Source: Jiangella alkaliphila (GTDB lineage Bacteria > Actinomycetota > Actinomycetes > Jiangellales > Jiangellaceae). Taken from it: a stretch of DNA of 64,000 bases. The position numbers and the translations under genes were made by a program. The notes beneath the pieces are model-generated. The model saw only the letters and a program-made list of their open reading frames with translations, did not search any database and was not told the origin of the DNA. The DNA is taken from the NCBI RefSeq assembly GCF_900105925.1, contig NZ_LT629791.1, positions 5,922,001 to 5,986,000 on the forward strand, given 5' to 3'. Positions 12,432-14,704 of the stretch are shown here, piece by piece (the first letter of the stretch is position 1; each line of letters begins with the position of its first letter).

Positions 12432-12446
12432 TCTGCTGCCAGCAGA
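12432..12446. promoter_or_regulatory. PopR-like palindromic operator upstream of the clpP pair
   Basis: TCTGCT-GCC-AGCAGA is a perfect 15-bp palindrome about 60 bp before the first clpP start. From memory, the Streptomyces lividans PopR site is TCTGCC-N3-GGCAGA; this differs by one base per half-site. That the adjacent PopR-like protein binds here is inference. Confidence 0.7.
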
Positions 12447-12503
12447 TTGTGTTGGAGCGGCCGTCCCGCGCGACGAATGATCGAGGGCAGAAGGGAGAAC
12501 GAC

Positions 12504-13118
12504 ATGACGAACGCGGGACCGATCACCGGGACACTGGACGACCAGCTGGCCACCCGGCTCCTCCACCAACGGATCATCGTCCTGGGCACCGAGGTCGACG
12601 ACCAGATCGCCAACCGGCTCTGCGCACAGCTGCTGCTGTTGTCCGCCGAGGACCCGCGCAGCGACGTCAGCCTCTACATCAACTCCCCCGGCGGCTCGGT
12701 CAGTGCCGGCCTGGCGATCTACGACACCATGCGGCTGATCCCGAACGACGTCAGCACGCTGGCGATGGGGCTGGCGGCCAGCATGGGCCAGTTCCTGCTC
12801 ACCGCCGGCACGCCGGGCAAGCGGTTCAGCCTGCCGCACGCGCAGGTGCTCATGCACCAGGGCTCGGCCGGGTTCGGCGGCACTGCGGCCGACATCGAGA
12901 TCTACTCCGAGCAGCTGGCCTACACGTCGGCGCTGATGACGAAGCTGACGGCGGAGCACACCGGCCAGTCGCCGGAGCGGATCGAGGCCGACAGCCAGCG
13001 CGACCGCTGGTACACCGCCGACGAGGCGCTGGCCTACGGCTTCATCGACCACATCGTCGAGCGCATGGACGACGTCCGGCCGAAGTCGGGCCGGCCGGTC
13101 GTGGGGGTGGGCGCGTGA
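12504..13118 (+). CDS. clpP: ATP-dependent Clp protease proteolytic subunit (ClpP3-like)
   Basis: 204 aa. It is the serine peptidase barrel subunit that works with a Clp ATPase. The catalytic Ser is in [14 protein letters not shown], the His in [13 protein letters not shown] and the Asp in [13 protein letters not shown], so the triad is intact. The handle region and [19 protein letters not shown] are standard. The ATG at 12504 follows the purine-rich GAAGGGAGAA. The second clpP starts inside its stop codon (GTGA), so the two subunits are coupled. A PopR-like palindrome lies upstream, and the pair resembles the stress-controlled clpP3-clpP4 operon of Streptomyces rather than the housekeeping pair; that assignment is inference. 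Confidence 0.93.
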
Positions 13119-13732
13119 CCCAGTACACGATCCCGACCGTCATCGAGAAGACGCCGTCGGGCGAGCGCGCCTTCGACATCTACTCGCGGCTGCTGAACGA
13201 GCGGATCGTGTTCATCGGGACGCCGATCGACGACGGCGTCGCGAACGTCGTCATGGCCCAGCTGCTGCACCTGGAGTCCGAGAGTGCGGACCTGGAGATC
13301 AGGCTGTACATCAACTCCCCCGGCGGGACGTACAGCGCGCTCACCGCGATCTACGACACCATGCAGTTCGTGATCCCGCCGGTCTCGACCACCTGCATGG
13401 GCCAGGCGTCGGAGACGGCGGCCGTGCTGCTGGCCGCCGGAGCGCCGGGGCGCCGGTACGTGCTGCCGCACGCGAAGGTCATGCTGCACCAGCCGTCCAG
13501 CCAGGCCCGCGGCACGCTGCCCGACCTCGCCGTCCAGGCGAAGGAGGTGGCCAAGGTGCGGGCCGAGATGGACGAGGTGCTCAGCCGGCACACCGGGCAC
13601 CCGGTGGAGAAGATCCGCACCGACACCGACCGCCACAAGACGTTCTCCGCGCAGGAGGCGGTCGACTACGGCTTGGCCGACCGGATCATCGCCAGCCGGA
13701 AGGCCATGCCCGCCGGCGCGGTCTACGGCTGA
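13115..13732 (+). CDS. clpP: ClpP-family subunit with altered catalytic-Ser motif (ClpP4-like)
   Basis: 205 aa. The overall ClpP fold is clear ([58 protein letters not shown]). The His and Asp positions are present. The nucleophile motif, normally GxAAS-x-x, reads [14 protein letters not shown]: the Ser sits one position early and Glu occupies the usual Ser position. It could be a non-catalytic ring partner, or use the displaced Ser. The GTG at 13115 overlaps the upstream clpP stop by four bases, so both proteins should be made in equal amounts and probably form mixed rings. Confidence 0.92.
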
Positions 13733-13747
13733 CGGCGGGCGTCACCC

Positions 13748-13781
13748 GACGCGCCCGGCTGCTCGTGAGGCCGGGCGCGTC
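13748..13781. terminator. Bidirectional hairpin between convergent clpP and popR-like genes
   Basis: Perfect 12-bp inverted repeat (GACGCGCCCGGC / GCCGGGCGCGTC) with a 10-nt loop lies 15 bp after the clpP stop and 10 bp before the convergent regulator stop. No long T-run follows, as is usual for actinobacterial terminators. Confidence 0.8.
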
Positions 13782-13791
13782 CGTGCGTGCG

Positions 13792-14250
13792 TCAGGCCGC
13801 GAGCAGCAGGACGCCGCCGTTGCGGCCGGTCGACGTCGGCCGCCGGATCGGGTCGCGGCGACGGAGCGCGCGGACGGTGTCCAGCCGGATGACCGTCGCG
13901 CGGTGCTCGTCGAGATCGTGCCGCACCTCGCCGAGCAGCTCGGACAGCTCCAGCCCGAGCGCGTCACAGACCGCCGCGAGCACCTCGGACGAGGCCTCCT
14001 TGCGGCCGCGCTCGACCTCGGACAGGTACGGCATCGAGACCTTCGCGTCGGACGCGACGTCGGCCAGCGTGCGGCCCTGGTCGCGCCGCGTGCGCCGCAG
14101 CACGTCGCCGACCATCGTCCGCAGCAGCGGCTTCGACCGCAGGTCTCCCCCGCTGCGCGTAGCCTCGCGGCCGGCTATCGGCCCTTTCCCCCCGCTGCGC
14201 GTAGCCTCGCGGCCGGCTATCGCCTCTTGTTGATCCTCCGGGGCGCTCAT
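13792..14250 (-). CDS. XRE-family PopR/ClgR-like regulator with C-terminal LAA degron
   Basis: 152 aa. The HTH core ([49 protein letters not shown]) matches ClgR/PopR regulators of clp genes. The protein ends VLLLAA, an ssrA-like C terminus. PopR and ClgR also end in Ala-Ala and are degraded by ClpP, so this is a likely protease substrate and the circuit would be self-correcting. It lies tail to tail with the clpP pair. The N-terminal 30 residues come from a duplicated 42-bp repeat and look like an insertion; the ATG at 14250 gives [20 protein letters not shown], but a start nearer the HTH is possible. Confidence 0.85.
14147..14222. repeat. Two direct copies of a 34-bp repeat (42-bp period) at the popR-like 5' end
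   Basis: Near-identical copies at 14147-14180 and 14189-14222, each containing GCTGCGCGTAGCCTCGCGG and ending CCGGCTATCG, are spaced 42 bp apart and in frame. They encode [11 protein letters not shown] twice at the N terminus of the regulator. The sequence has the look of an intergenic repeat that was captured by the coding region. Confidence 0.85.
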
Positions 14251-14292
14251 GAGGTCACGGTAGCGGCGCCGGCCCGGGTTCCGGGAGTCGGG

Positions 14293-14307
14293 TTCGCCGC
14301 CGGCGAA
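14293..14307. promoter_or_regulatory. ClgR-box-like palindrome upstream of the popR-like gene
   Basis: TTCGCCGCCGGCGAA is a perfect palindrome 43 bp upstream of the regulator ATG. With the preceding G it reads GTTCGC-N5-GCG, which from memory is the Streptomyces ClgR target. It lies between the divergent popR-like and ArsR genes and could serve either. Confidence 0.6.
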
Positions 14308-14344: not shown

Positions 14345-14376
14345 TGACACCTGTCAAAGTATTCTGACACGTGTCG
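14345..14376. promoter_or_regulatory. Paired TGACAC boxes upstream of the ArsR-family gene
   Basis: Two similar 12-bp imperfect palindromes, TGACACCTGTCA (14345-14356) and TGACACGTGTCG (14365-14376), have centres 20 bp apart, close to two helical turns. They end 10 bp before the ArsR-family start, which suggests autoregulation by that protein. Confidence 0.65.
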
Positions 14377-14386
14377 AGGAGTCCTG

Positions 14387-14704
14387 ATGGCGGACGGGCC
14401 GAGCGGCGACCAGCTGGTCGAGATGCTCGCCGCGCTCGCCAACCCGATCCGGCTGCGCATCGTCGCGACGCTCGCCGGCGGGCGCGACTACGTCAGCCAC
14501 CTTGCCCGCGAGATCGGCGTCAGCCGCCCGCTGCTGCACATGCACCTGCAGAAGCTCGAGGCGGCGGGGCTGATCGCCGGCCGGTTGGAGCTCTCCGACG
14601 ATGGCAAGGCGATGAAGTACTACGAGGTCACCGACTTCGACCTGCACCTGACCGCGGCGGCGCTGGCCGTCGCGGCCCAGACCCTCACCCCGAAGGAGTC
14701 CTGA
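14387..14704 (+). CDS. ArsR-family winged-helix regulator
   Basis: 105 aa. Compact winged [23 protein letters not shown], then [20 protein letters not shown] and [20 protein letters not shown]. No Cys cluster for metal sensing is present, so it is not an obvious metalloregulator; it resembles the subfamily encoded beside small membrane proteins. The ATG at 14387 lies just after the TGACAC palindromes and a GAGGAG ribosome site. The next gene starts within its stop codon (TGATG), so the two are coupled. Confidence 0.88.

Follow-up and report, generated by a model that had tools for sequence, protein, structure and literature searches.

A PopR/clpP3P4-type backup protease module in Jiangella alkaliphila with a ClgR-type box before popR and an altered ClpP4 active site

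Results

Genes and sites of the locus

We analyzed a 64,000-nt window of DNA, bases 5,922,001 to 5,986,000 of the single-contig 7.7 Mb genome of Jiangella alkaliphila, and describe a locus within it that, judged from its sequence, is a PopR/clpP3P4 backup-protease module as in Streptomyces. Two genes for proteins of the family PF00574 (CLP_protease) lie on the forward strand: clpP3 (12504 to 13118; 234 bits), the product of which has a complete Ser-His-Asp triad and is predicted to be the cutting subunit, and clpP4 (13115 to 13732; 235 bits), coupled to clpP3 by a 4-base overlap and encoding a second subunit in which the catalytic serine and aspartate are replaced. Convergent with this pair, across a gap of 59 bases, is a popR-type regulator gene on the reverse strand (13792 to 14250), encoding a protein of 152 amino acids with an XRE-type helix-turn-helix (HTH) and the C-terminus GGVLLLAA. 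A PopR-type operator, TCTGCT-GCC-AGCAGA, is present on the forward strand at 12432 to 12446, centered 65 bases 5′ of the clpP3 start codon, and a ClgR-type box, TTCGCC-GCC-GGCGAA, at 14293 to 14307, centered 50 bases 5′ of the regulator start codon. The palindromes, the coupled clpP pair, the convergent regulator ending in LLLAA, and a fit of the upstream box to the ClgR motif GTTCGC-N5-GCG had been described in an initial annotation of this DNA; each was recovered where it had been placed, the motif match covering 14292 to 14305.

The highest-scoring NCBIfam model for the regulator was ClgR, with 99.3 bits, and because this lies below the equivalog cut-off of 170, the regulator was taken to be a paralogue of ClgR and not ClgR itself. 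Among named genomes, its closest matches come from Jiangella species. That it might be the genome's own ClgR was ruled out by this score together with the presence of a canonical clgR elsewhere, the neighbors of which we read as pgsA- and cinA-like frames. The housekeeping clpP1P2 pair (C1:3062513/3063165) is also separate from the pair in the window; a separate clpP1P2 pair and clgR are what the initial annotation had proposed looking for, and the genome has both. A fifth ClpP-family match (locus L005, C1:1729133) was considered as a ClpP5 and set aside, as on our reading it appears to be a phage prohead-type protease. Within the N-terminal coding region of the regulator gene (14152 to 14222), a 29-base core recurs at a 42-base step and an 11-residue segment occurs twice; the doubled core is absent from the 12 relatives viewed (P0002 to P0013).

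The PopR-type operator before clpP3

The operator TCTGCTGCCAGCAGA at 12432 to 12446 is a perfect 7-1-7 palindrome of the TCTGCC-N3-GGCAGA type, with a symmetric change to TCTGCT/AGCAGA. The window contains 19 perfect palindromes of 7-1-7 form, and so palindromy by itself carries no weight. Rarity of the pattern is no proof either, since TCTGCY-N3-RGCAGA was found at 3 places in the genome versus 9 for the backwards control. Any significance of either palindrome on its own was therefore dropped, given the number of palindromes and pattern counts that are unconvincing against expectation and controls; it is their position and conservation that place the PopR box and the ClgR-type box beyond chance. 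The two further PopR-pattern sites of the genome lie within a 186-aa reading frame and about 44 bases 5′ of an epimerase-like frame.

Conservation was evaluated in twelve Jiangella genomes, including that of the window, and in named loci retrieved by scanning named genomes with a ClpP4 profile (the best 80 of at least 590, or 78 after the removal of two duplicate loci). The PopR box was exact (12/12) in 11/11 Jiangella loci, which bears out the PopR-type operator of the initial annotation, and it was purely TCTGCY/RGCAGA in this genus, with no GGCGAA half. It also scored 12/12 in 5/5 other Jiangellaceae promoters scanned, and a sixth, divergent one (L125) reached 10/12. Among the 78 named loci, the best score was 12/12 in 45, 11/12 in 22, 10/12 in 10, and 9/12 in 1, compared with 0.06% (12/12) and 0.13% (11/12) of draws of shuffled promoters.

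Some loci depart from this arrangement. Locus L125 (genome G019, Jiangellaceae) is a very divergent PopR/clpP locus, the 12/12 PopR box of which lies 5′ of the regulator and not of clpP3. Six loci of family f18 (L082, L083, L088, L109, L127, and L128) have a clpP3-like gene with a pair of perfect PopR boxes spaced 15 bases from each other, a regulator-like frame without an Ala-Ala (AA) end, and no clpP4 recognized alongside. Most f18 regulators were not counted as PopR because neither a clpP4 nor an AA tail was recognized beside them.

Distribution of the module

The module is widespread, and the circuit is known and common. The initial annotation had regarded the arrangement as special outside Streptomyces, which is not borne out: among the best 80 of at least 590 loci, Streptomyces was commonest, and Actinoplanes, Nocardioides, Rhodococcus, Cellulomonas, Kineosporia, Nocardiopsis, and others also had it. 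The regulator was recognized in 71 of these 78 named loci, on the opposite strand in all 71, and it ended in AA in 63, VA in 7, and AG in 1. The other 7 had a ClpP4 row without a recognized regulator, 4 of them on truncated loci. In 20 Jiangellaceae genomes, the regulator and the second clpP pair were found together in 17 and were both absent in 3, at a cut-off of 1e-40 in one scan, with the incomplete genomes G014 and G015 left out for the pair.

C-terminal ends of the regulator and of ClgR

The C-terminus was LLLAA in all 11 Jiangella regulators read. It is encoded at 13795 to 13809 (reverse strand) and is a candidate ClpXP degron; we liken it to a ClpXP-type tail because it resembles the end of the tmRNA tag of this genome, ANVKRTDFALAA, which finishes in ALAA. 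The statement in the initial annotation that PopR and ClgR both end in Ala-Ala thus holds for the regulator and fails for the ClgR of this genome, which ends in VKVG. Among 17 Jiangellaceae ClgR rows, 16 ended in VG (all 12 from Jiangella in DVV[KR]VG) and 1 in AV, and seven Streptomyces-like rows that we took for ClgR (L075 to L080 and L122) ended in VVAA. Because of the VG and AV ends, an Ala-Ala-dependent turnover of ClgR is not to be assumed in Jiangella.

The ClgR-type box before popR

The site TTCGCCGCCGGCGAA at 14293 to 14307, 5′ of the regulator gene, is also a perfect 7-1-7 palindrome. The looser motif GTTCGC-N5-GCG was counted 6 times in the window, where 3.7 occurrences would be expected, and the palindromic form TTCGCYNNNRGCGAA (TTCGCY-N3-RGCGAA) was found at 6 places in the genome, with 0 for the backwards control. 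One of these places is before clpC and one before the window regulator; of the other four, three are copies of one stretch 5′ of what we read as the start of an rpoB-like gene, close to the ends of the contig, and the fourth falls inside a long frame. The rpoB-like start region occurs three times near the two contig ends (L281, L285, and L286; C1 near 9373, 7708839, and 7712047), once inverted, and could be a genuine terminal repeat or an assembly fault.

A ClgR-type box precedes clpC, and GTTCGCT[GC]ACGGCG precedes clpP1, in 12/12 Jiangella genomes. Because both are present in genome G006, which has neither PopR nor clpP3P4, the clpC and clpP1 boxes are independent of PopR. The box before popR was exact in 10/11 Jiangella and had one mismatch in the eleventh.

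The wiring of popR was compared by counting exact patterns no farther than about 330 bases from the HTH in 108 rows. A ClgR box was found before popR in 16 rows: 10/11 Jiangella, 5/5 Nocardioides (one of them counted on one strand only), and 1/1 Sanguibacter; the shuffle rate for this pattern was 0.012 per promoter. It was found in 0/49 Streptomyces rows (43 named and 6 from a group taken for Streptomyces) and in 0/5 other Jiangellaceae; in three of these five, a match of 11/12 is present. A PopR-like box was found before popR in 7 of the 108 rows, namely 6/12 of family f17 and 1/4 Actinoplanes. We read these counts as wiring of popR that appears to differ by lineage. The proposal of the initial annotation that the regulator is under ClgR control is thus favored by a box that matches those before clpP1 and clpC, and it is limited by the Streptomyces rows with no exact box. 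No exact ClgR box was found within 400 bases before clgR in 17 Jiangellaceae loci. Upstream of popR, a divergent ArsR-type regulator gene (14387 to 14704) has two TGACAC-TGTC-like repeats before it (14345 to 14376), and an ArsR-type gene adjoins popR in 6/11 Jiangella loci.

Loss of the ClpP4 catalytic triad

The most interesting part of the locus, and a point absent from the initial annotation, is the decay of the ClpP4 active site. In a structure model, ClpP4 is predicted to have the ClpP fold. Alignment to a solved ClpP places a GAG codon (Glu100, 13412 to 13414, forward strand) at the catalytic serine and a CAC codon (His174, 13634 to 13636, forward strand) at the catalytic aspartate, so that the triad is Glu-His-His and not Ser-His-Asp. 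Glu replaces the serine in 11/11 Jiangella genomes, and the aspartate is lost in all 11 as well.

The ClpP4 triad was complete in 31 of 116 distinct rows. (Among 119 rows in all, L108, L141, and L186 are dropped from the distinct counts, as they equal loci L033, L117, and L093; rows were called ClpP3 or ClpP4 from the window or Streptomyces protein that they matched best and not by neighborhood.) The histidine is Gly in 53 rows (Streptomyces-type and Kitasatospora), the aspartate is altered in Jiangellaceae, in Actinoplanes and relatives, and in a few others, and the serine is altered in Jiangella, in one Nocardioides, and in G019 (L125), which has Ala. In contrast, the ClpP3 triad was kept in 120 of 122 distinct rows, the exceptions (L165 and L184) looking to us like frame or contig-end faults, and the housekeeping triads were kept in 37/37 ClpP1 and 38/38 ClpP2 rows (34 genomes, four counted twice).

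On a tree of 78 pairs, at least 4 changes between a complete and a lost ClpP4 triad are needed. This was a quick tree with the triad columns removed, mixed backbone support, and a very long branch for L125; it omits L108, L141, L186, L165, L184, any row lacking one of the two subunits, and, among the named rows of the Streptomyces type (His to Gly), all past the first 12. In one of the rows counted as changed, Actinopolymorpha, the change is no more than Asp to Glu. A decaying pseudogene was ruled out for ClpP4: in a codon comparison of 10 Jiangella genomes, there was no stop in the 525 bases compared, and the median dN/dS was 0.144 (0.156 for ClpP3), from which we conclude that ClpP4 is maintained by purifying selection. 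Loci L160 (labelled Sphaerisporangium) and L169 (labelled Cellulosimicrobium) have near-identical clpP3P4 proteins, which may point to a wrong label or contamination in a record, or to a transfer.

The ATPase-docking pocket

In Streptomyces ClpP1P2, according to PMC9765437, the ATPases dock on a pocket of ClpP2 (S94, Y96, and Y116), cutting is left to ClpP1, and the serine of ClpP2 is not required. The corresponding ClpP4 positions had Tyr in 116/116 rows and an aromatic residue at the third position in 116/116. ClpP3 had Tyr in 100/120 and an aromatic third residue in 21/120, with Leu in most. In the window, the pockets are Ser-Tyr-Leu in ClpP3 and Arg-Tyr-Phe in ClpP4, the latter keeping Tyr and Phe. 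Because the conservation of the pocket, as far as residues go, is the reverse of that of the triad, we propose that ClpP3 cuts and ClpP4 docks, and we infer that the backup core would consist of a cutting ring and a docking ring.

Discussion

In Streptomyces, PMC9765437 and PMC12607617 describe PopR as a ClgR paralogue that activates clpP3clpP4 and is degraded by ClpP1P2; because ClpP1P2 degrades its activator, the second pair is made only on failure of the first. A review (PMC9775585) gives the ClgR motif as GTTCGC-5N-GCG and the PopR region as TCTGCC-3N-GGCGAATCTGCC-3N-GGCAGA, and it takes the two alanines at the terminus to be the likely signal for degradation. By analogy, a working housekeeping ClpXP1P2 of J. 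alkaliphila would destroy the regulator through its LLLAA tail, and when ClpXP1P2 fails, the regulator would accumulate, bind at 12432 to 12446, and switch on clpP3-clpP4. The box before popR suggests that in Jiangella the supply of PopR is probably set by ClgR, giving a cascade from ClgR to PopR to clpP3P4. ClpP3 is predicted to cut, and the residues of ClpP4 are consistent with a ring that would serve only for docking of ClpX or ClpC and for structure.

As a whole explanation of the locus, we think it probable that this is the PopR/clpP3P4 module with a ClgR-to-PopR cascade and an asymmetric core. A more specific version is that the backup core is one-sided, with the active site kept and the pocket decaying in ClpP3, and the reverse in a ClpP4 that has repeatedly become a pseudo-protease, and that the ClgR wiring in Jiangella and Nocardioides puts the supply of PopR (ClgR) and its stability (ClpP1P2) under separate control; towards this version, we lean slightly. 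The initial annotation was right in outline and is supported in part.

Several points weigh against this interpretation. With ClgR ending in VKVG, its half of the published feedback may follow another wiring here. The clpP1 box fits the palindrome well on one half only, and the backwards patterns are weak controls. Loss of the ClpP4 triad is not universal, as 31/116 rows keep it, and 53 of the 85 altered rows represent a single Streptomyces/Kitasatospora change. In the window ClpP4, the first pocket position of the three is Arg, and ClpP3 keeps one pocket Tyr, with Leu, so residual docking there is possible. Finally, PopR may tolerate GGCGAA half-sites, in which case the popR box could be PopR's own.

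This last point leads to the alternative that the site at 14293 to 14307 is autoregulatory, with PopR controlling its own gene. The PopR region given in PMC9775585 includes GGCGAATCTGCC, which suggests that a GGCGAA half-site may be accepted, and a PopR-like box does precede popR in the f17 rows and the one Actinoplanes row noted above. However, the same type of box precedes clpC in 12/12 Jiangella, even in G006, which has no PopR, and the clpP3 operator of this genus has no GGCGAA half. We consider autoregulation unlikely, although a serious candidate, and control of popR by ClgR the better reading of these sequences. The idea that both palindromes are chance features of GC-rich DNA could draw on the 19 palindromes of the window, on the lack of clear enrichment of GTTCGC-N5-GCG, and on a genome count of the PopR pattern (3 versus 9) that is not decisive, but it is already refuted by the conservation in place of both sites across the genus, and shuffled promoters reach a PopR score of 12/12 in so few draws, against 45/78 named loci, that we give it next to no credence.

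As for the proteins, ClpP4 might still be an active peptidase through a neighboring serine or residual residues, so that there would be no dead ring. Ser99 adjoins Glu100 in 10/11 Jiangella genomes, and a non-standard residue at the aspartate position is tolerated in Listeria ClpP1 within a mixed complex (PMC9765437). On the other side, one Jiangella (L030) has Gly at 99, the ClpP4 aspartate is also lost in all 11, and the clade with a non-standard residue there has N, S, H, and R, a spread suggestive of relaxed constraint; we regard residual activity as improbable. A somewhat less improbable alternative is that ClpP3P4 is a specialized protease with its own substrates, responding to another signal through PopR, and not a stress backup: P1P2 and P3P4 are called non-isofunctional, with different substrate ranges suggested, in PMC12607617. 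Against this, the degron-like tail and the PopR box, the parts that tie expression to failure of ClpP1P2, are retained.

As far as our search reached, two features are new: a ClgR-type box 5′ of popR, seen in Jiangella and Nocardioides, and an active site that has been lost recurrently in ClpP4. The open literature searched yielded no report of ClpP4 triad loss or of popR wiring outside Streptomyces, although the original papers of 2000, 2002, and 2004 may have either, and the Streptomyces literature searched, available in part, yielded no mention of ClgR control of popR. From this circuit one can see how a bacterium detects that its main protease has failed, a matter of relevance for drugs directed at ClpP. 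Were ClpP4 a docking subunit only, the backup core would cut one-sidedly and offer a natural test of the reason for two kinds of ring in mixed Clp cores, and this might help to explain the insensitivity of ClpP3P4 to acyldepsipeptides reported in PMC12607617. The differing promoter wiring of popR by lineage would be a clear example of rewiring around a degron switch that is itself conserved.

Comparison with known systems

The closest known system is PopR/clpP3clpP4 of Streptomyces lividans, with which the window shares a ClgR-paralogue regulator with an Ala-Ala end, a TCTGCY-N3-RGCAGA-type operator, and a separate clpP1P2 pair and clgR; the regulator is convergent with the clpP pair in the Streptomyces loci read as well. 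The window has one operator, whereas many Streptomyces loci have two, spaced 15 bases from each other, and the distal site often ends in GGCGAA. Streptomyces popR also differs from that of Jiangella in its promoter (ClgR-type box in 0/49 versus 10/11), and ClpP4 has lost the histidine in Streptomyces, whereas it has lost the serine and aspartate in Jiangella.

With the actinobacterial ClgR regulon, the genome shares GTTCGC-N5-GCG or TTCGCY-N3-RGCGAA boxes before clpP1, clpC, and popR. It differs in that the 17 Jiangellaceae ClgR rows end in VG or AV instead of AA and in that no exact box lies within 400 bases before clgR.

The same division of labor between subunits is predicted as in the Streptomyces ClpP1P2 core (PMC9765437). 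In ClpP1P2, however, both triads are complete and the split is functional, whereas in ClpP3P4 it lies in the residues themselves. Cyanobacteria and plastids have inactive ClpP paralogues of the ClpR type, which are subunits of ClpP fold without a working triad in a mixed core. ClpP4 would be alike in kind, but it sits in an inducible backup pair of actinobacteria.

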